Assembly (NCBI RefSeq): GCF_900187135.1 | Contig: NZ_LT906443.1 | Location: 1,426,001-1,490,000, forward strand | Length of the DNA: 64,000 bases | DNA from: Corynebacterium ulcerans | Lineage (GTDB): Bacteria > Actinomycetota > Actinomycetes > Mycobacteriales > Mycobacteriaceae | Direction: 5' to 3' | Part shown: positions 2,766 through 33,722 of the stretch, piece after piece | Numbering within the stretch: the first letter of the stretch is position 1 | How the letters are laid out: each line of letters begins with the position of its first letter | Notes under the pieces: model-generated | What the model was told of the DNA's origin: nothing | The model's database searches: none | The model's input: the letters and a program-made list of their open reading frames with translations, nothing else | Made by a program: the position numbers and the translations under genes

Positions 2766-3208
2766 AAAAACCTTTCTGGTAAAAATTCAGGGCCAGTCTT
2801 TTACACGTGGCCCTCATGGAGAATCATGTTGTGTAAGAACTCTTTGCGAGTGACAACACTGTAACCAGAGGTTTTGCCTTACGTACAGCCTTAAAACCTG
2901 TGCGTTTTCCTGTGAGAGACCCTAAAGCTAAGCCAAAAAATAATAGGTTTCTATATAAACGAGAATTGCAGACAATCAGAATAAGCTATTTATTGAATAC
3001 AATCGTTTGCCCAACCATAGGAAACTGTATTTTTACTGGAAGAAGTCTGGCAGAAGGTTGGAAAAATATATCATTTTTCTTCCTGAGCCCTACAGATAAC
3101 TAGCAGGAAAAAATTTCCTTGGAGGATCACACTATATCGACATAATCATGCAGCTCAAAGCAGTTTTTTATGGAATTTTGTCCAAGGAAAAATTTTGACC
3201 TCATCCCG
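2766..3208. other. AT-rich intergenic region, no supported gene
   Basis: This stretch of about 440 bases is clearly more AT-rich than its surroundings. I find no convincing coding region. It should hold the promoter of the small secreted protein on its left side. Near the right side is a long inverted repeat (3108-3196) described separately. Confidence 0.6.
3108..3196 (-). terminator. Long inverted repeat downstream of the permease gene
   Basis: AAAAAATTTCCTTGG at 3108-3122 is complementary, except for one position, to CCAAGGAAAAATTTT at 3182-3196, with about 60 bases between the arms. Read on the minus strand, the distal arm ends in a run of T residues. It could therefore end the gabT-gabD-permease transcript, though the loop is unusually long for a simple terminator. 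Confidence 0.4.
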
Positions 3209-4459
3209 TCAGATTCCCACTAAAGACCACAAGGAATAGGCAAACGCGGCACAATAAACCACCACAATGGCCAACTGAATCAACGGGTAAGCCTGCCACG
3301 TAACCTGCCATTCAGGGTTACGATTACCGTTTTTCCTAGCAGCTCGGAGTAGCAAAACCGGGATGATAGACATGATTGCACCAGCAAAGCCACCTGCATA
3401 TGTCAAGGCAGCCACAAACCCTGTAAAGCCGGCAAAGAAGATCACAAGCGGCGGAATCACGGTAAGAAGCAAAGCCGCAATTCTCTGCCAACCTGTTTCC
3501 CTCCAGTGGAAGATATTCAAGACATTGCGCATCGTCGTAAAGCCAATCGCCAGAAACGATGTCAGCATGGCGCACAAGGCAAAGATATTAGCCAGGTAAA
3601 AAGCCACAGTGCCCAGGGAGTCACCCCAAGCAATGGTGATCACTTCCGTGACATCGGTACCCAGCAAACCGAGCGCAGCGAAGGGGACAAGCGCCAAGGT
3701 AAAACCTGTGATTCCCATCCCGGCTACAACGGCGTGCGGTATGGCGTTCGGATTATGATCGCGTAATCCGCGAGCGAGTTCCGGCACCACATATTGAGCG
3801 AGAAACGTGAAAACCGCGAGATTCATAATGGGAATGATGAATGCAGGATTCAGCACCACCACATTGGCGATGGTGATACCCGGACCGATAAACGTCCATC
3901 CGCACAAAACGATGGTGATCAGCGCCATCGCTGTCGTGATAGCACCTTCCGCGATACCTGTAGCATGCAACCCAATCCACATCACCGCTGCACCCACAAT
4001 GAAAAAGATGACTGTTCCCAGAGTCGGCGAGACCCCAAGAAGGTTATGCAGGAGTGACCCCGACCCCGAGGCATAGGCAATCAGAGCCCCGATCCCGTTC
4101 ACCATAATGGCCACGAACACAAGCCATCGACCGGCCTGACCGAGATACTTTTCTGCGAGACCCGAAAGCTGGAAGTCCTCTTGAGTTCGCAGTGCCACCT
4201 CCGCCACATAGAGCATAGAAAAGGTGGTCAACGTGCCCGCAATAATGAGTGCGATGACGAGTGATAGAAAACCACCATCACGGGAGGCATAGGGGATACT
4301 CAAAATACCCGCGCCGATATTTGTACCAAAAATCAATGCAATGCCCTGGGCCAGGGTAATCCTGTGATTATGGTGTTCTGGATGATGCCCGCCATGATTT
4401 GTGCGAGCTTTCCCAGTGCTGGGGGCCGATAACGTCAGGCCTTGCTTATTGAGGGGCAT
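3209..4459 (-). CDS. gabP: Amino-acid permease of the gab operon, likely GABA uptake
   Basis: The product is a 416-residue polytopic membrane protein with about eleven hydrophobic segments. A charged, His-rich N-terminal tail (GGHHPEHHNH) precedes the first helix. The motif IFGTNIGAGILSIPYA in helix 1 is typical of the AAAP/HAAAP amino-acid transporter group and unlike the APC-type GabP of E. coli. It lies directly after gabT and gabD on the same strand (19 bases after gabD). This matches the gabTDP order described in C. glutamicum, whose GabP is likewise unrelated to the E. coli protein. The start has an AAGGAG site six bases upstream. Function is inferred mainly from context; an aromatic amino-acid transporter is the alternative. 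Confidence 0.7.
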   Translation of the reverse strand: MPLNKQGLTLSAPSTGKARTNHGGHHPEHHNHRITLAQGIALIFGTNIGAGILSIPYASRDGGFLSLVIALIIAGTLTTFSMLYVAEVALRTQEDFQLSGLAEKYLGQAGRWLVFVAIMVNGIGALIAYASGSGSLLHNLLGVSPTLGTVIFFIVGAAVMWIGLHATGIAEGAITTAMALITIVLCGWTFIGPGITIANVVVLNPAFIIPIMNLAVFTFLAQYVVPELARGLRDHNPNAIPHAVVAGMGITGFTLALVPFAALGLLGTDVTEVITIAWGDSLGTVAFYLANIFALCAMLTSFLAIGFTTMRNVLNIFHWRETGWQRIAALLLTVIPPLVIFFAGFTGFVAALTYAGGFAGAIMSIIPVLLLRAARKNGNRNPEWQVTWQAYPLIQLAIVVVYCAAFAYSLWSLVGI

Positions 4460-25711: not shown

Positions 25712-26185
25712 ATGACTGTCGTCGGCACGCTTTTGGCTATCGTAGCTATTGCTCTTATCATCATCGGCGCCTTGGCATGGGCTCGCCGCCTCCCCGGAAA
25801 CTCTTATGTGGGAATCCGGGTACCTGAGGTGCGTAAATCTCAAGAGCTGTGGACCACCGCGCATCACGTCGCTGGCCCCTTGTGGGTCGTCGGTGGCATT
25901 GCTGTTGGTATCGCTGCATCACTGTGTTTTGCCCCCTCCGGGTGGTTACATCTGATGTCCATCGTCGCGGTGCTCGCGGGCATAATGTTTGTGAGTATTG
26001 GAGCTAATGTGGGCGCGCGCGCTGCATCGCTTCTCGACGCCCAAGCGGACGTCACAGCGGCTTCAGAATCCACGTGCTGTAGTGCCGGGGGAGCTGAGGA
26101 GGCAGACGATGAGGGGCAGGCGTCGACAAGCTTTACCCCCGATCTGGAAGCATTACGACGTGCAGCGCAGGCATCCGATAACTGA
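25712..26185 (+). CDS. SdpI/YfhL-like small membrane protein
   Basis: The protein has about 157 residues and three hydrophobic segments (about residues 1-23, 52-75 and 80-100) followed by an acidic cytoplasmic tail containing adjacent cysteines (STCCSAG). The segment LPGNSYVGIRVPEVRKSQELW between helices 1 and 2 is typical of the SdpI family, named for the Bacillus immunity protein against the toxin SdpC. A general membrane role is likely, and immunity is not implied. No strong ribosome site is seen; a GTG nine bases earlier is an alternative start. The gene ends just before the trp promoter. Confidence 0.65.
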   Translation: MTVVGTLLAIVAIALIIIGALAWARRLPGNSYVGIRVPEVRKSQELWTTAHHVAGPLWVVGGIAVGIAASLCFAPSGWLHLMSIVAVLAGIMFVSIGANVGARAASLLDAQADVTAASESTCCSAGGAEEADDEGQASTSFTPDLEALRRAAQASDN

Positions 26186-26191
26186 TTGCCC

Positions 26192-26220
26192 TTGCGCTCA
26201 TGCACGCTCATGCGTATGGT
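26192..26220 (+). promoter_or_regulatory. Promoter of the first trp leader
   Basis: TTGCGC (26192-26197) and TATGGT (26215-26220) are spaced by 17 bases and fit a housekeeping promoter. Transcription would start around 26227, at or just before the leader peptide ATG (26229), so the leader may be leaderless. The 13 bases CCCTTGCGCTCAT (26189-26201) recur before the second trp leader. Confidence 0.6.
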
Positions 26221-26228
26221 TCATTTTT

Positions 26229-26267
26229 ATGAAGAACATGAATGCACAGTGGTGGTGGCTCGCATAG
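26229..26267 (+). CDS. trpL: trp leader peptide 1
   Basis: The 12-residue peptide MKNMNAQWWWLA has three consecutive tryptophan codons just before its stop, as in known trp leader peptides. Its end overlaps the first arm of the attenuator. Translation should stall at the Trp codons when charged tRNA-Trp is scarce and so allow trpEGDCF transcription. An internal ATG at 26238 is an alternative start with a GAAG sequence upstream. Confidence 0.9.
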   Translation: MKNMNAQWWWLA

Positions 26268-26328
26268 CAGCGAGCTACTAAATTGTGCATCCCACAGCTC
26301 GCTTGAAGACTCCCAAGCGGGCTTTTTT
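26257..26328 (+). terminator. trp attenuator 1 (before trpE)
   Basis: Four arms are visible. Arm 1, GCTCGC (26258-26263), pairs with arm 2, GCGAGC (26270-26275). Arm 2 extended to GCGAGCT pairs exactly with arm 3, AGCTCGC (26296-26302), as antiterminator. Arm 3, GCTCGCTTG (26297-26305), pairs with arm 4, CAAGCGGGC (26314-26322), with one wobble, followed by six T residues, as terminator. Together with the Trp-rich leader peptide this is a classical ribosome-mediated attenuator. Confidence 0.9.
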
Positions 26329-26391
26329 GTATCTATAAGTTTTCAGCCACAAAGCCCGCAGCGGGAAAATCCCGACAAACGCAAAGGCACT

Positions 26392-28041
26392 ATGGCTACT
26401 ACACAAACCACTTTTTACGTTGAAAGACGCTCAGTCCGCTACCACGAGGACGCCGCCGCACTTTTTGCGGCGCTGGGAGGGACAACTGCTTCCGATTCCG
26501 TGCTGTTGGAATCTGCGGACGTGGAGTCCAAGAAGAACACGATGTGCATCGCCACTCTCACCGGCGCGGTACGTGTTACATGCGTCGGACAAACGGTCAC
26601 CGCCACTCCTCTGACGCCCACAGGAAGGAGCATTATTGATCGCCTATGCAGCCAGCTTGCAGAATATCTAGCAGAAAGACACACCACCGGGGAAGCAACC
26701 TTTGCTTTCACCAGGGCTCAGGAACTTAACGAACGCGAGCGGTTAACTGCCGTAAGCAATGCAGAAGTGCTCCGCGCACTCCAGCGTGCGGCCGGCTACA
26801 GCGGAAAAGAATTGCCGCTCCTTTCCGGTGGCTTTGCCTTTGACTATTTAGAAACCTTTGAGGTGCTCCCAGAGGTTGGATCGGGGGAGAATACCTATCC
26901 GGATTATCAATTCCTGGTGGCAGAAACTCTGCTTGTTATCGACCACCTGAACCGTGAAGCATTTATCGAGGCTGTGGGTATTAATGCAGAAGAGCTAACC
27001 AGCAGACTTGACCACCTTGTGGAGAAAATTTCTTCTGACATACCCGAGCTAGGGATAGCCGCAACGCCATCGGATACGCCGTCAGAGGTCCTGCACGTGC
27101 AGACCTCTATGAGCGATCCCCAATTTTGCACGCATGTAGAAGAACTCAAAAAGAGTATTCATAGCGGCGATGTCTACCAGGTAGTACCGGCACGATCCTT
27201 CTCTACTGCATGCGATAATGCCTACGCGGCGTATCTTCAGCTTCGTGCATCCAACCCAAGCCCGTATATGTTCTACGTGCGAGGACAGACAGCATTAAAC
27301 AATATTGCGCACAATAATAATGAAGCCTCTTGTGAGACTTATGAAATCATCGGAGCCTCACCCGAATCCAATTTAAAGTTCGACGCAGCAACACGCAACG
27401 TTCAGCTATACCCTATCGCAGGCACCAGACCGCGGGGCCTTAATCCCGACGGCAGCGTCAATCACGAGCTGGACGTCCGCGCCGAACTGGACATGCGCAC
27501 CAATGCCAAAGAAATCGCCGAGCACACTATGCTCGTTGATCTTGCGCGCAATGATCTCGCTCGAGTAGCAGTACCAGCCACAAGAAAAGTGTCCGACCTC
27601 CTAAGTGTGGATAGATATTCCCGGGTAATGCACCTTGCGAGCAGGGTGAGTGCCACACTACACTCCGATTTTGATGCTATCGACGCCTACCGCGCCTGCA
27701 TGAATATGGGAACACTCAGCGGGGCACCTAAATTGCGCGCAATGGAATTACTTCGCGGTACCGAAGGTACCCGAAGAGGATCCTATGGTGGAGCGATTGG
27801 CTATCTGCGTGGCGATGGAACAATGGACACCTGCATTGTTATCCGATCCGCTTTTATCCACAACGGTACCGCCGTCGTGCAGGCGGGAGCTGGAGTAGTG
27901 CGAGATTCCATACCCCAGGCGGAAGCCGATGAAACCCTGCATAAAGCATACGCAGTGCTCAACGCCCTTGCGATGGCACAGAACGCAACCCTAAAGGTAA
28001 ACGCTCATGAATCCCACCAACACCCATGTAGTACTCCTTGA
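26392..28041 (+). CDS. trpE: Anthranilate synthase component I
   Basis: The 549-residue subunit makes anthranilate from chorismate with ammonia supplied by TrpG. The tryptophan feedback site LLES is at residues 38-41. The chorismate-binding domain shows SGDVYQVVPARSF, YEIIGASPESNL, YPIAGTRPRG, EHTMLVDLARNDLARV, MNMGTLSGAPKLRAMELL and GAGVVRDSIPQAEADET. The ATG at 26392, after AAAGG, starts a normal N-terminus; the longer frame runs back into the attenuator. The 3' end overlaps trpG by 35 bases, giving a slightly unusual His/Pro-rich C-terminus (HESHQHPCSTP). It is the first structural gene after attenuator 1. Confidence 0.95.
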   Translation: MATTQTTFYVERRSVRYHEDAAALFAALGGTTASDSVLLESADVESKKNTMCIATLTGAVRVTCVGQTVTATPLTPTGRSIIDRLCSQLAEYLAERHTTGEATFAFTRAQELNERERLTAVSNAEVLRALQRAAGYSGKELPLLSGGFAFDYLETFEVLPEVGSGENTYPDYQFLVAETLLVIDHLNREAFIEAVGINAEELTSRLDHLVEKISSDIPELGIAATPSDTPSEVLHVQTSMSDPQFCTHVEELKKSIHSGDVYQVVPARSFSTACDNAYAAYLQLRASNPSPYMFYVRGQTALNNIAHNNNEASCETYEIIGASPESNLKFDAATRNVQLYPIAGTRPRGLNPDGSVNHELDVRAELDMRTNAKEIAEHTMLVDLARNDLARVAVPATRKVSDLLSVDRYSRVMHLASRVSATLHSDFDAIDAYRACMNMGTLSGAPKLRAMELLRGTEGTRRGSYGGAIGYLRGDGTMDTCIVIRSAFIHNGTAVVQAGAGVVRDSIPQAEADETLHKAYAVLNALAMAQNATLKVNAHESHQHPCSTP

Positions 28042-28654
28042 TAACCACGATTCCTTTGTATACAACCTGGTCGACGCTTTTGCTGTTGCAGGCTATCGTT
28101 GCACCGTCTTCCGCAACTCCGTTGAGGTAAAGGAGATTCTGGCAGCCAAGCCGGACATCATTTGCCTTTCTCCCGGGCCCGGCCATCCTCGGGACGCGGG
28201 CTGCATGATGGAACTCATCGATCATGTATTGGGTCGCATCCCGGTCCTTGGCATTTGCCTAGGATTCCAAGCCCTCCTAGAGCACTTTGGGGGAGAAGTG
28301 CGCGAGTGTGGCCCAGTCCATGGAATTACAGATCTTATGCAGCTCAACGAACGCGGCCTGCATAGTTCGCTATTTCACGGCCTGACCGTTGACGCCGGTC
28401 CAGGATCGCAGGAAGGCAAACACGTCCCCGTGGCCCGGTACCACTCTCTTGGGTGCACGGAAGCGCCAAAGGAATTGAGGACACTAGGAACCTGCCCTTC
28501 GAACATCGGGCCAGTGATAATGGCGGCCGAGGCGCGCGAGCATGCTGCGGTGGGGCTGCAATTTCATCCAGAGTCGATCCTAAGCCCTTCCGGCCCGATC
28601 ATTTTGCAACGCTGTATCACCCATCTATCTCAACTAACCAAAGCCTACAGTTAA
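28007..28654 (+). CDS. trpG: Anthranilate synthase component II (glutamine amidotransferase)
   Basis: The 215-residue class I glutamine amidotransferase supplies ammonia to TrpE. LLDNHDSFVYNLVDAF is at the N-terminus, and LSPGPGHPRDAG forms the oxyanion region. The nucleophilic cysteine is in LGICLGFQALLEHFGG, and GLQFHPESIL carries the catalytic His and Glu. It is a single-domain protein, not fused to TrpD. It overlaps trpE by 35 bases, indicating tight coupling. Its stop codon forms the left edge of an 18-bp palindrome. Confidence 0.95.
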   Translation: MNPTNTHVVLLDNHDSFVYNLVDAFAVAGYRCTVFRNSVEVKEILAAKPDIICLSPGPGHPRDAGCMMELIDHVLGRIPVLGICLGFQALLEHFGGEVRECGPVHGITDLMQLNERGLHSSLFHGLTVDAGPGSQEGKHVPVARYHSLGCTEAPKELRTLGTCPSNIGPVIMAAEAREHAAVGLQFHPESILSPSGPIILQRCITHLSQLTKAYS

Positions 28655-28669
28655 CGTCACGTGACGTTA
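28652..28669. repeat. Perfect 18-bp palindrome between trpG and trpD
   Basis: TAACGTCACGTGACGTTA is exactly symmetric and starts with the trpG stop codon. It shares the TCACGTGA centre with parS but differs at the flanking positions. It could be an operator, a weak ParB site or an RNA hairpin in the operon message. No T-tract follows. Confidence 0.6.
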
Positions 28670-28698
28670 TTCTTAGGTACAAAAACCTTAGGACAATT

Positions 28699-29724
28699 AT
28701 GACCAGTGAAAGCACAAAGAAAAAACTTATCGCTTATCTCGATAATCCACACCCAACGGTAGAAGAAGCTATAGAGGTTTTTACTCCTCTCACAATTGGC
28801 GACTACGACGATGTGCACATCGCAGCACTCCTAGCCACCATACGTACACGCGGGGAAACCTACGCAGACATCGCAGGCGCCGCACATGCTTTCCTCGCAG
28901 CAGGGCGTCCTTTCCCCATCACAGGTTCCGGTTTAATGGATACCGCAGGTACCGGCGGCGATGGCGCAAATACCATCAACGTAACCACGGCAGCCTCACT
29001 TGTGGCAGCCTCTGGGGGAGTGCAGATGATTAAATGCGGCAACAGATCGGTCTCTTCTCAATCGGGATCGGCCGATGTTCTGGAAGCTCTCAATATCCCA
29101 TTAGACCTAGACCCCGACCGCGCTGTTCGACAATTCAAAGCTTCCAATTTCACGTTTCTTTTCGCACCGGCCTATAACCCGGCAGTCGCCCACGTACAGC
29201 CCGTCCGAAAAGCCCTCAGAGTCCCTACTCTTTTTAATGTGTTGGGCCCATTACTTTCCCCGGCGCGTCCCGAATTTCAGCTTATGGGCATTGCTAATCC
29301 AGCGCTTGGCCCCGTCATTGCTAAGGTATTCCGCGATCTAGGCCGCACTCATGCATTAGTGGTTCATGGATCCGGCATCGACGAAGTCGCCGTACATGGC
29401 CCCACCACCATATGGGAACTCAACCACGGCACGATCACCAGTTATGAGGTCACCCCTGAAGAACTAGGAATCCAGCGCCATAGCCTCGCTGACCTAGCAG
29501 GCGGCGACGGTACGGAAAATGCTGCACTGATGCGCGCCACTTTTGCCGGGGAAGGTGCTCCTGCCCATCGAGATGCTGTCGCAGCTACCGCCGGCGCAAT
29601 TTTTTATACTGCAAATCTGGTGGACTCTCTGCGTGAAGGAACAGACAAAGCAAAAAAACTCATCGAAGACGGCCACGTTCAACAGTGGCTCGCAACCCAC
29701 GAGGAGGCCAACTATGCACAATAA
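28699..29724 (+). CDS. trpD: Anthranilate phosphoribosyltransferase
   Basis: The 341-residue enzyme joins anthranilate and PRPP. The PRPP-binding glycine loop is MDTAGTGGDGANTINVTTAA near residue 80, followed by KCGNRSVSSQSGSADVLEAL. PAYNPAVAHVQPVRKALRVP, FNVLGPLLSPARPEFQLMGI and VHGSGIDEV also match the family. The ATG at 28699 has AGGA upstream; the longer open frame is not needed. It overlaps trpCF by 11 bases. Confidence 0.95.
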   Translation: MTSESTKKKLIAYLDNPHPTVEEAIEVFTPLTIGDYDDVHIAALLATIRTRGETYADIAGAAHAFLAAGRPFPITGSGLMDTAGTGGDGANTINVTTAASLVAASGGVQMIKCGNRSVSSQSGSADVLEALNIPLDLDPDRAVRQFKASNFTFLFAPAYNPAVAHVQPVRKALRVPTLFNVLGPLLSPARPEFQLMGIANPALGPVIAKVFRDLGRTHALVVHGSGIDEVAVHGPTTIWELNHGTITSYEVTPEELGIQRHSLADLAGGDGTENAALMRATFAGEGAPAHRDAVAATAGAIFYTANLVDSLREGTDKAKKLIEDGHVQQWLATHEEANYAQ

Positions 29725-31204
29725 TGCAGCGTCCATGCCTACAGTCTTAGAAGAAATTGTTCACGCCCGCCGATCACATCTTCAAGAGATTCGTGCCCGC
29801 ATTGCACATGTAGATCCTCTCCGGTTGCCGCGGTCCACAAAATCTCTTTTCCAGGCGCTTGGTGGCTCTGTGAGCGGGGGAGTGGCGCCGCGTCGTCAAG
29901 CACATTCTGACACCTCTACAAGGGCGCCGCACTTCATTATGGAGTGCAAATCCGCATCACCGTCATTAGGGGACATCCGAGCCGATTATTCCCCAGGAGA
30001 CATTGCACGGATTTACTCTCGCTACGCTTCCGCGATTTCCGTTCTTTGCGAGCCCGACAAATTTAACGGCGATTACGATCACCTGGCCACCGTTGCAGCT
30101 TCCACGCATCTGCCGGTTCTATGCAAGGACTTCATCATCGATCCCGTGCAGGTGCACGCTGCACGCTACTTTGGCGCGGATGCGATCCTACTCATGCTTA
30201 GCGTGCTTGACGACGCCACCTACATCTCACTTTCCCATGAAGCCGAACGCCTCGGCCTAGACGTCCTCACCGAAGTAATCAACGAGGAGGAGGTAAAGAG
30301 AGCCATTCGCCTTGGCGCAAAGATTTTTGGTGTCAATCACCGCAACCTACACGACCTCAGTATCGACCTTTCCCGTTCCTCACAACTAGAAGCCCTCGTC
30401 CCGGCCACCGCTATACTCGTGTCAGAATCCGGCATCCAAACAAACGAGACTGTCCGCCAGCTGGCAGGCCATTCCGACGCCTTCCTTGTCGGCTCACAAC
30501 TCACCGGCTGCATCGACGTTGACTCCGCCGCACGTTCACTCGTTTTCGGGACGAACAAGGTGTGTGGACTCACCACCGCTTCCGGCGCCCAAACTGCACG
30601 CGCAGTCGGCGCAACGCATGGGGGATTGATATTTGAAGAATCCAGCCCTCGCAATGTTTCACGTGAAACTGCCCAAAAAATCATTGCGGCAGAGCCACAT
30701 CTACACTACGTTGCGGTGAGTAGACGCACTCAAGACTGGACGGAAATACTCCTTCCGGGTATTAAAACCCTCCAGATCCACACCCCATATCAAGGGTCCA
30801 TCGCGGGAGAGAGAGAGCTTCTCAACAAAGCCCGCGCAGAACTCCGCAAAGCGGGAAGAGAAGACATTGCCATCTGGCGAGCCGTATCCATGACAGCGCC
30901 GGAAGGTCCTGATATTGCTGTGGCACTCATGGATGACGTAGATATGATCCTTCTCGACACCGGCGCCGGCGGCACCGGAACACCCTTTCCTTGGGAAAAG
31001 ATCCCTCAGGGAGTGACACCAAAGGCAATCCTGGCCGGGGGTCTTAATCCTGACAATCTTCCCGAAGCATTAGTAAGGGGGTGCGCCGGTCTAGACCTTA
31101 ATTCCGGCGTCGAATACCCAGCCACCGCCGGGATCTGGGCGGGATTAAAAGATTCAGGGGCACTACGCCAAGCTTTCTCCACCATCCGAGAGTTTCATTA
31201 TTAA
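29714..31204 (+). CDS. trpCF: Indole-3-glycerol-phosphate synthase / phosphoribosylanthranilate isomerase fusion
   Basis: The 496-residue bifunctional enzyme catalyses two consecutive steps. The TrpC part (residues about 1-275) shows FIMECKSASPSLGDI, VLCKDFIIDPVQ, LDVLTEVINEEE, GVNHRNLHDLSIDL and VSESGIQT. The TrpF part (about 280-496) shows KVCGLTTASGAQTARAVGA, LLDTGAGGTGTPFPWEKIPQ, LAGGLNPDNLPEA and LDLNSGVE. The start has GAGGAGG six bases upstream and overlaps the trpD stop. A parS site (30655-30670) is embedded in the TrpF part, where it encodes NVSRET. The operon pauses here: a second leader and attenuator separate it from trpBA. Confidence 0.95.
   Translation: MHNNAASMPTVLEEIVHARRSHLQEIRARIAHVDPLRLPRSTKSLFQALGGSVSGGVAPRRQAHSDTSTRAPHFIMECKSASPSLGDIRADYSPGDIARIYSRYASAISVLCEPDKFNGDYDHLATVAASTHLPVLCKDFIIDPVQVHAARYFGADAILLMLSVLDDATYISLSHEAERLGLDVLTEVINEEEVKRAIRLGAKIFGVNHRNLHDLSIDLSRSSQLEALVPATAILVSESGIQTNETVRQLAGHSDAFLVGSQLTGCIDVDSAARSLVFGTNKVCGLTTASGAQTARAVGATHGGLIFEESSPRNVSRETAQKIIAAEPHLHYVAVSRRTQDWTEILLPGIKTLQIHTPYQGSIAGERELLNKARAELRKAGREDIAIWRAVSMTAPEGPDIAVALMDDVDMILLDTGAGGTGTPFPWEKIPQGVTPKAILAGGLNPDNLPEALVRGCAGLDLNSGVEYPATAGIWAGLKDSGALRQAFSTIREFHY
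30655..30670. promoter_or_regulatory. parS site inside trpF coding sequence
   Basis: TGTTTCACGTGAAACT has the complete 14-base core and lies within the codons of the TrpF domain, about 27 kb from dnaA. A centromere site therefore constrains the protein sequence here (residues VSRET). Confidence 0.9.
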
Positions 31205-31256
31205 CCTGACTTTCCCACACCGGCCACACCCAACACAGAAAACATACCCCCACCCC

Positions 31257-31285
31257 TTGCGCTCATCACCCAAGACGTTTAAGTT
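31257..31285 (+). promoter_or_regulatory. Promoter of the second trp leader
   Basis: TTGCGC (31257-31262) and TAAGTT (31280-31285) are spaced by 17 bases, exactly as in the first trp promoter. The surrounding CCCTTGCGCTCAT (31254-31266) is identical to that promoter. Transcription would start around 31292, next to the leader ATG at 31293. Confidence 0.55.
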
Positions 31286-31292
31286 GTTGCCT

Positions 31293-31334
31293 ATGAGATA
31301 TGCACTAAACATTTGGTGGTGGCGCGCTTACTAA
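31293..31334 (+). CDS. Second trp leader peptide, before trpBA
   Basis: The 13-residue peptide MRYALNIWWWRAY again has three consecutive Trp codons and ends inside arm 2 of the following attenuator. No Shine-Dalgarno sequence is visible, consistent with a leaderless message. I know of only one trp leader in well-studied corynebacteria, so this internal copy is unusual. Confidence 0.85.
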   Translation: MRYALNIWWWRAY

Positions 31335-31393
31335 GCGGGCCATTGAGTGCTATCTATTTCTCCGGCTCGCATCGCGCGGGCCGTTTCTTTTTT
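31321..31393 (+). terminator. trp attenuator 2 (before trpBA)
   Basis: Arm 1, GGCGCGCTT (31321-31329), pairs with arm 2, AAGCGGGCC (31333-31341), at eight of nine positions. Arm 2, GCGGGCC, pairs with arm 3, GGCTCGC (31364-31370), as antiterminator. Arm 3 pairs with arm 4, GCGGGCC (31376-31382), as terminator, followed by TTTCTTTTTT. Arms 2 and 4 share the same seven bases, so the switch is mutually exclusive by construction. Confidence 0.88.
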
Positions 31394-31626
31394 GGGTGAA
31401 TCCTAGGCCACGAGCTCGCGATCAATCACATATCTATCGCGCAAAGGCACCAACCATGTTCTCTCTTTGTTACCCCTACACCGCCCACACCACAGCAGGC
31501 GCACACCAAGACATCCCACCGCAACCACGAGTCATCATGACGTCGGCACGCGAAAAACGATGGCATGGTTTCACGTGAAACATTGACCTACGAAAAACAC
31601 CCCTAAAACTCGCAACCTAAGGATGC
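31394..31626 (+). other. Leader stretch between attenuator 2 and trpB
   Basis: About 230 bases without a supported gene follow attenuator 2. It contains a parS at 31567-31582. A 60-codon open frame is present but has no ribosome site or recognisable sequence. Confidence 0.55.
31567..31582. promoter_or_regulatory. parS site upstream of trpB
   Basis: GGTTTCACGTGAAACA has the complete 14-base core. It lies in the trpBA leader region, 44 bases before the trpB start and 0.9 kb from the copy in trpF. Confidence 0.9.
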
Positions 31627-32880
31627 ATGATGACGCTCTCCCAGAACTCCACCGATCAGCACACACTCCTTCCCGCATATTTCGGGGAATTCGGCGGACA
31701 ATTCGTTCCCGAGTCACTCCTGCCAGCCCTCGACCAACTCGAAAAAGCGTTTGTTGAGGCACAAGAAGATCCACAATTCCGAGAGGAGCTCGCGGGCTAT
31801 CTCAAGGATTATTTGGGGAGGCCCACCCCCTTAACCGAATGTTCCAAGCTACCTCTGGCTGGAAAGGGTAGGGGACACGCGCGCATCTTCCTCAAACGCG
31901 AAGACCTAGTCCATGGCGGAGCACATAAGACAAACCAAGTGATCGGCCAGGCTCTCCTGGCTAAGCGGATGGGCAAAAAGCGCATCATTGCAGAAACCGG
32001 TGCAGGACAGCACGGAACCGCAACCGCCCTTGCGTGCGCCCTCTTAGACCTTGAATGCGTCATCTACATGGGAGCAAAAGATGTAGAACGCCAACAACCC
32101 AACGTGTATCGCATGGAACTCATGGGTGCCACAGTGGTACCCGTAGACTCAGGATCAGGGACGCTCAAAGACGCGGTCAATGAGGCGCTTCGGGATTGGA
32201 CTGCAACCTTCCACGAATCTCATTACCTACTCGGCACAGCAGCGGGCCCCCACCCATTCCCGACGATCGTTCGAGAATTCCACCGTGTGATTTCCGAAGA
32301 GACAAAAGCCCAAATGATTGAACGCACGGGAGGCCTCCCCGACGTTGTGGTTGCTTGTGTGGGCGGAGGTTCCAATGCAATTGGCATGTTTGCAGATTTC
32401 ATTGACGATCCTTCCGTAGAGCTCGTCGGAGCGGAACCCGGCGGTGAAGGCCTATCATCCGGCAAGCACGGAGCAACCATCAACAACGGACAAGTCGGTA
32501 TCCTGCACGGCACTAAAAGCTATTTGATGCGAAACTCTGATGGCCAAGTGGAAGAGTCCTATTCCATTTCCGCCGGACTAGATTACCCCGGGGTCGGGCC
32601 ACAACATGCACACCTATCAAAGTCTGGACGAGCCACCTATGTAGCCATCACGGACGCCGAGGCTCTTGAAGCCTTCCAATTACTCTCCCGTGAAGAGGGA
32701 ATCATCCCAGCACTGGAATCAAGCCATGCGCTTGCGTATGCACTGAAGCGAGCCAGCCTCGCAGAAGAAGAAGGAAAAAATATCACCATAGTGGTCTCCC
32801 TTTCAGGACGTGGTGATAAAGACATCGATCACATTCGTAAAACTCTCGCCGCCAACCCCGCGCTTGCCCTCAAGGACTAA
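31627..32880 (+). CDS. trpB: Tryptophan synthase beta chain
   Basis: The 417-residue PLP enzyme joins indole and serine. The N-terminal part shows [18 protein letters not shown]; the Schiff-base lysine is in [29 protein letters not shown], the PLP phosphate loop [23 protein letters not shown] and the C-terminal [13 protein letters not shown] complete the classical TrpB1 pattern. Two tandem ATGs start the gene after AAGG; either may be used. It is the first gene behind attenuator 2, and trpA follows after two bases. Confidence 0.95.
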
Positions 32881-32882
32881 TC

Positions 32883-33722
32883 ATGAACCGTTACCACAAC
32901 CTTTTCACCCGACTAGAGCAATCCAATGAAGGAGCCTTTGTTCCTTTCATCATGCTCGGCGACCCTTCTCCCGAAGCATCACTTGCAATCATTCGTACCG
33001 CTGTCAAAGCCGGCGCAGATGCACTTGAGATTGGCGTTCCCTTCTCAGACCCGGTGGCCGACGGCCCAACCATCCAACGATCTCATCTCCGCGCCTTGGA
33101 TAATGGAGCAACCGTTGATTCCTCTTTATCGCTCATTGCTCAGATTCGTTCAGAATTTCCAGACCTGCCCATCGGACTCCTGATCTACGGCAACGTCCCC
33201 TTCACCCGCGGACTAGATACCTTCTATCAAGAATTCGCCACAGCCGGCGCCGATTCTATTTTGCTTCCCGACGTCCCAGTACGGGAGGGGGCACCTTTCA
33301 TCACAGCAGCACAACAAGCAGGGATCGCACCTATTTTCATTGCACCCGCACAGGCATCGGAAGATACCCTCCGAGACGTGGCAGCACATTCTGAAGGCTA
33401 CATCTACGCAATTTCTCGCGATGGGGTCACCGGCACAGAACGGGAATCATCCACTAGCGGACTCAGTGACGTAGTAGCAAACATCACGGCATTCGGCGGT
33501 GCCCCTACGCTTCTCGGGTTCGGAATTTCCACTCCCCAGCACGTTCGCGACGCGATGGCGGCCGGGGCAAGGGGAGTAATCACCGGATCCGCCATCACAG
33601 CAATCATTGAACGCCACTGTGTTGGTACACACCCTCAGCCCGCAACAATCAATGACATGCCCGCGTTGCAATCGGAAATTTCCGCTTTTATCGCTGAGAT
33701 GAAAGAAGCAACTCGCAAGTAA
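32883..33722 (+). CDS. trpA: Tryptophan synthase alpha chain
   Basis: The 279-residue TIM-barrel subunit cleaves indole-3-glycerol phosphate. Catalytic Glu is in ALEIGVPFSDPVADGPTIQ, and catalytic Asp is in ADSILLPDVPV. YAISRDGVTGTE, GFGISTPQHV and ARGVITGSAI form the phosphate site. It starts two bases after the trpB stop and so is translationally linked to it. It is the last gene of the trp cluster; no strong terminator was recognised behind it. Confidence 0.95.
   Translation: MNRYHNLFTRLEQSNEGAFVPFIMLGDPSPEASLAIIRTAVKAGADALEIGVPFSDPVADGPTIQRSHLRALDNGATVDSSLSLIAQIRSEFPDLPIGLLIYGNVPFTRGLDTFYQEFATAGADSILLPDVPVREGAPFITAAQQAGIAPIFIAPAQASEDTLRDVAAHSEGYIYAISRDGVTGTERESSTSGLSDVVANITAFGGAPTLLGFGISTPQHVRDAMAAGARGVITGSAITAIIERHCVGTHPQPATINDMPALQSEISAFIAEMKEATRK

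Follow-up and report, generated by a model that had tools for sequence, protein, structure and literature searches.

Two tryptophan attenuators, before trpE and before trpBA, in Corynebacterium ulcerans and a small clade of relatives

The window, a 64,000-nucleotide stretch of the Corynebacterium ulcerans genome (contig NZ_LT906443.1, positions 1,426,001 to 1,490,000), contains tryptophan biosynthesis genes in the order trpE, trpG, trpD, trpCF, trpB and trpA. All six score above the curated NCBIfam cut-off, and the trpB is the only one in the genome. Positions below are those of the window.

26392-28041, plus strand: trpE, open reading frame matching anthranilate synthase component 1
28007-28654, plus strand: trpG, open reading frame
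28699-29724, plus strand: trpD, matching the trpD model
29714-31204, plus strand: trpCF fusion, matching bifunctional TrpC/TrpF
31627-32880, plus strand: trpB, matching the trpB model; first gene of what we read as the second unit
32883-33722, plus strand: trpA, matching the trpA model

A gap of 422 nt (31204 to 31627) separates trpCF from trpB and houses a leader of its own, which begins 88 nt past the trpCF stop. The earlier note had placed two trp leaders in this set, and both are where it put them, including all four arms of the second: each has three consecutive Trp codons, mutually exclusive arms and a terminator with a T-tract.

26229-26267, plus strand: leader peptide 1, MKNMNAQWWWLA, the tail of a longer listed frame; predicted leaderless
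26257-26263, 26270-26276, 26297-26303 and 26316-26322, plus strand: arms of attenuator 1 (whole element 26257-26323)
26296-26323, plus strand: stem of terminator 1, followed by a T-run
31293-31334, plus strand: leader peptide 2, MRYALNIWWWRAY, shared unchanged by three genomes; predicted leaderless
31320-31329 with 31333-31342, plus strand: arms 1:2 of attenuator 2, with one mismatch (element 31320-31342)
31335-31341 with 31364-31370, plus strand: antiterminator of attenuator 2 (arms 2:3)
31363-31370 with 31376-31383, plus strand: stem of terminator 2 (arms 3:4), with its T-tract at 31384-31393

The three Trp codons occupy residues 8-10 in both peptides, and the stop codon of leader peptide 2 falls at arm 2. 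With tandem Trp codons, exclusive arms and an intrinsic terminator, leader 2 is by its anatomy a classical ribosome-mediated Trp attenuator. Rfam 15, at gathering score, has no match within the window and hence no name for either leader. A scan of 26100-31700 returned 12 terminator-like sites (5.3 +/- 2.4 expected); terminators 1 and 2 have seven and six G-C pairs, respectively, and the remaining ten sites have four or fewer. Folding energies are -46.9 kcal/mol for leader 1 (z -5.7) and -40.5 kcal/mol for leader 2 (z -3.9); the antiterminator piece of leader 2 folds at -14.7.

To each run of at least two TGG we assigned an arm score, built from the best 2:3 and 3:4 pairing and T-tail in the next 130 nt. 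The survey covered both strands of 2.01 Mb (the window and 175 trp loci) and 2439 such runs. Leader 1 scores 49 and leader 2 scores 48. At a cut-off of 44, which was chosen once the scores had been seen, there are 105 sites before the first trp gene, four in the trpCF-trpB gap and two elsewhere, the last being 2 of 2330 other TGG runs. The corresponding counts are 28, three and one at a cut-off of 48, and 117, four and 13 at 40, where five of the 13 sites elsewhere are leaders of lone trpB genes. Leader 2 could in principle be an accidental pattern in GC-rich DNA, as the two unrelated sites scoring at least 44 in 2.01 Mb might suggest. Against this, 3000 dinucleotide shuffles of the window gap gave an arm set of any kind once and never a score of 40 (observed, 48), and the element recurs at the same place in four genomes of one clade. 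We therefore give chance practically no credence; leader 2 is not a chance pattern.

The distribution of leader 2 was assessed in the genus Corynebacterium, with 242 genomes, for 176 of which one locus each was read. In 167 of these loci trpCF and trpB stand in order; the nine dropped are seven lone trpB loci, one contig end and L353. Comparison of this gap in related corynebacteria, a course the earlier note had suggested, locates the attenuator in only four of the 167 operons: those of the window, C. silvaticum (G206), G043 and the C. diphtheriae-like G166. The trpCF and trpB matches lie a median of 36 nt apart among the 167 operons, and the four longest gaps (2414, 433, 426 and 399 nt) are those of the four leader 2 genomes. 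In 15 further genomes examined for the gap only (L265-L289, the other ten of which repeat counted genomes), no WW-containing ORF lies in the gap. When leader 2 was searched as DNA against the 242 genomes, the window genome, G206 and G043 alone gave E <1e-30, with the next hit at 7.4e-8; this search missed G166, which was recognised from its locus. Neither the WW-ORF screen nor the arm score captures every first leader (leader 1 is found in 117 of 176 sequences at score 40 and in 105 at 44), and second leaders that have diverged strongly could escape them as well. The arm score replaced an earlier hairpin-based extraction of leaders, which returned a region in 109 of 167 entries, some of them wrong.

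A tree of TrpD, TrpB, TrpA and TrpCF, built for 34 chosen loci, places the four leader 2 genomes in one clade (SH-aLRT 98) with one change. The tree was made by a quick method without bootstrap, has two weak deep forks, and represents the locus, not an independent species history. Because the four carriers form one clade, a single origin of leader 2 is the simplest account. The nearest named TrpB, that of C. silvaticum, matches the window TrpB at 98%, and TrpB of G043 matches it at 94%. The first leader peptide of G166, MTNMNAHNWWWRA, equals that published for C. diphtheriae NCTC 13129 (PMC5784534), and G166 is thus C. diphtheriae or a close neighbour.

Among the window, C. silvaticum and G043, leader peptide 2 is identical and 50 of 51 pair cells in its stems are standard, compared with 25.5-52.9% when the partners are slid in the same three sequences. 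These sequences contain no two-sided pair changes in the stems, so that pairing is conserved and covariation does not serve as proof. Leader 2 of G166 differs from that of the other three. One could envision leader 2 as a relic, a decaying copy without effect, with trpBA expressed by read-through or from another start. The modest match of its putative promoter would fit such decay; however, three genomes preserve the peptide, its stop and the stems though loops and flanks have changed, and we judge a relic very improbable.

Several other features of these loci were noted. In the one assembly of C. silvaticum (L301, 3151-3351), the frame of leader 1 shifts inside the run of Trp codons and then continues for 66 codons through the attenuator arms, out of frame with trpE; if this shift holds, leader 2 would be the only intact Trp sensor at that locus. 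Past leader 2 in the window lies a possible 40-aa ORF (31456-31578), with AAAGG upstream and its stop inside a parS-like site; by eye, its start and end, and little of its middle, are similar in C. silvaticum and G043. A hairpin-like CGCGATCAATCACAT..CTATCGCG at 31417-31441 is, also by eye, nearly unchanged in the same two genomes. Six parS-like sites of 16 bp with the core TTTCACGTGAAA occur in the window (15889, 22568, 30655, 31567, 33823 and 36810), of which one is within trpCF and another lies in the stretch from leader 2 to trpB. The parS core lies inside trpCF in 155 of 167 operons, and parS1 of C. glutamicum is likewise within trpCF (PMC7083940). We considered parS as the cause of the split and found this unsupported: the core is in the trpCF-trpB gap of 11 of the 167 operons, and seven of these have no second leader.

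In G166 the two halves are separated by an ORF that resembles DUF454 but falls short of its NCBIfam cut-off, by panC and, on the opposite strand, by panB; a trpB1 stands before trpE. With these genes intervening, the halves are two operons in G166. At 1e-20, the panC protein finds no match in G000, G043 or G206, a set that includes the window genome; panC is present far from trp in G221 and G238, and G145 has panC too. In the same G166 locus (L298, 2885-4421), the trpE similarity is split between two frames, 2885-3097 and 3117-4421, and the gene may be interrupted or the sequence misassembled. The earlier note had counted both attenuators as parts of one operon. The two attenuators stand, and the single operon is doubtful given the G166 arrangement; the trp set is better read as two adjacent units.

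A Shine-Dalgarno sequence is not seen upstream of the AUG of leader 1, nor upstream of that of leader 2. A promoter scan by sigma-70 rules lists no site at either leader; by eye, a candidate can be recognised before each.

26192-26220, plus strand: putative promoter 1, TTGCGC, 17-nt spacer, TATGGT, ending 8 nt before the ATG
31257-31285, plus strand: putative promoter 2, TTGCGC, 17-nt spacer, TAAGTT, ending 7 nt before the ATG

The TTGCGC of promoter 2 and its distance are kept in C. silvaticum and G043. As no Shine-Dalgarno is seen and the AUG follows the putative -10 box at 8 nt in leader 1 and at 7 nt in leader 2, both leaders are predicted to be leaderless, a class that in C. glutamicum makes up about 33% of mRNAs (PMC3890552). 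The trpBA pair probably has its own promoter. Such a promoter has precedent, since C. glutamicum has an internal transcription start at trpB (PMC11995493). For C. diphtheriae, the passages of a transcriptome paper that bear on these leaders name only that of trpB1 and report no start for it (PMC5784534).

Alternatively, leader 2 could act mainly as an internal attenuator on mRNA reading through from trpE, a second control step in one operon. Polymerase could enter it, as no other plus-strand terminator is listed between trpCF and leader 2. However, leader 2 lacks a Shine-Dalgarno and lies 88 nt from the trpCF stop, and in the computed fold of its untranslated RNA the 1:2 hairpin coexists with the terminator, as it does within a longer read-through piece of unremarkable overall fold (z -1.3); in G166, moreover, the opposite-strand panB divides the halves. 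We consider a mainly internal role unlikely. Given a leaderless peptide without Shine-Dalgarno and an untranslated fold that terminates, we infer that read-through mRNA from trpE would mostly stop at the leader 2 terminator, leaving trpBA dependent on promoter 2.

Leader 2 may be a copy of leader 1. With their promoters, the two leaders align at 96, compared with 54.5 +/- 6.2 in 500 shuffles. The promoters alone, which have CCCTTGCGCTCAT in common, align at 27 compared with 12.3 +/- 2.6, and one of 1000 plain letter shuffles is equally high. Shared arm function explains part of this resemblance and the promoter stretch less easily. Past the terminators there is no likeness (24 compared with 21.8 +/- 3.4), so any copied segment was short, and copying of the trpE start along with the leader is rejected. 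Given that its leader 2 differs from the other three, a separate origin in G166 may also be considered.

Other trpB genes of the genus are preceded by Trp leaders in different settings. An extra trpB stands before trpE at the same locus in 16 of 176 sequences (L123, L135, L139, L170, L183, L184, L188, L193, L298, L299, L300, L307, L311, L338, L341 and L342). A short WW-containing ORF precedes it in all 16, and G166 alone among them also has a leader before trpBA. The seven lone trpB loci match the window TrpB at 61-63% and have no trpE match within the fetched 11 kb. In five of them (L218, L220, L221, L222 and L223, whose peptides end in, for example, CGAQWWWLA), a leader with Trp codons and attenuator arms (scores 40-42) lies 276-320 nt before the trpB match; their genomes (G001, G034, G068, G098 and G101) are all outside the leader 2 clade. 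The other two, L217 and L219, show no Trp leader at this score. In a sample of 20 additional trpB copies located outside trp operons, none has a leader at score 36 in about 1 kb upstream, and L353 (G159), with trpBA and neither trpE nor trpCF in the fetched 8.5 kb upstream, has no Trp leader at score 36 either. Control of trpB by its own Trp attenuator is therefore not confined to the window's clade. An attenuator-controlled trpBA pair downstream of trpCF is confined to it among the operons examined, and the lone trpB leaders are different arrangements. Given these five leaders, Trp leaders can arise or persist in other ways.

The explanation that we hold to be very likely is that leader 2 is a ribosome-mediated Trp attenuator with its own promoter, probably copied once in an ancestor of the clade and making two co-regulated units. 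When tryptophan is plentiful, the ribosome would reach the leader 2 stop and cover arm 2, arms 3 and 4 would form the terminator, and trpBA would be off. When Trp-tRNA is uncharged, the ribosome would stall at Trp codons 8-10, arm 2 would pair with arm 3, and polymerase would enter trpBA. The promoter-leader segment of the first unit would have been copied before the four leader 2 genomes diverged, dividing the trpEGDCFBA set in two. The earlier note had proposed that the tryptophan synthase half is separately controlled. A complete Trp attenuator and a probable promoter of its own speak for this; independence from anthranilate synthesis is not supported. With a triplet of Trp codons at residues 8-10 in each peptide, both leaders should read the same pool of charged Trp-tRNA. 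The suggested role of leader 2 in indole uptake is not supported.

More tentatively, and with distinctly less confidence, we suggest that leader 2 distinguishes where an mRNA began. A transcript from its own promoter would begin with the leader AUG and be translated and Trp-regulated. A trpE read-through transcript could not start the leaderless peptide, would keep the 1:2 hairpin and would terminate at any tryptophan level. If so, a single short leader, once copied, would close the first unit and open a second, regulated one, splitting an operon in a single step. The leader 2 genomes provide an example, limited to one clade, of trp genes divided by an apparent attenuator copy, with the undivided form kept in other corynebacteria. 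In C. diphtheriae, the TrpB protein Q6NEC4 shows a log fold change of +8.1 from 4 to 24 h inside macrophages, a result that the authors call unclear (PMC13419099). Leader 2 offers a lead for this rise, bearing in mind that Q6NEC4 could be either of two TrpB proteins.

The second attenuator is real, is conserved in a small clade and was already predicted for the best-known member of that clade, C. diphtheriae. Candidate attenuators were described before both of its trp operons, trpB1EDGC and trpB2A (Seliverstov et al., 2005; PMC1262725). As the nearest described relative, this system resembles the window in having two Trp attenuators, one per half, a likeness drawn from description rather than from sequence letters. 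It differs in layout: the C. diphtheriae-like G166 has a DUF454-like gene, panC and panB between the halves and a trpB1 besides, whereas the window has one trpB, no panC match and a 422-nt gap. A search of openly available literature by titles, abstract beginnings and passages returned no other description of this arrangement in C. ulcerans or C. pseudotuberculosis. What this analysis adds is the restriction to one clade among 167 operons, the probable origin of leader 2 by copying, and an interpretation of the genes as two units.

In C. glutamicum, Heery and Dunican reportedly described a trpL attenuator before trpE in 1993. Like the leaders of the window, trpL combines Trp codons and a terminator of the same type; unlike the window, C. 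glutamicum has one leader for the operon. Its trpB has an internal start at the ATG, and the account of that start mentions no attenuator (PMC11995493). A reporter-tested case of leader-peptide attenuation in the same group is the uORF attenuator of C. ulcerans ilvB-II, which, unlike leader 2, concerns branched-chain amino acids and ilvB (PMC10272879). In Chlamydia, the intergenic promoter of trpRBA is controlled by YtgR, an iron-dependent repressor, unlike the leader peptide of leader 2; like leader 2, it is an internal region that controls trpBA separately (PMC7755916).
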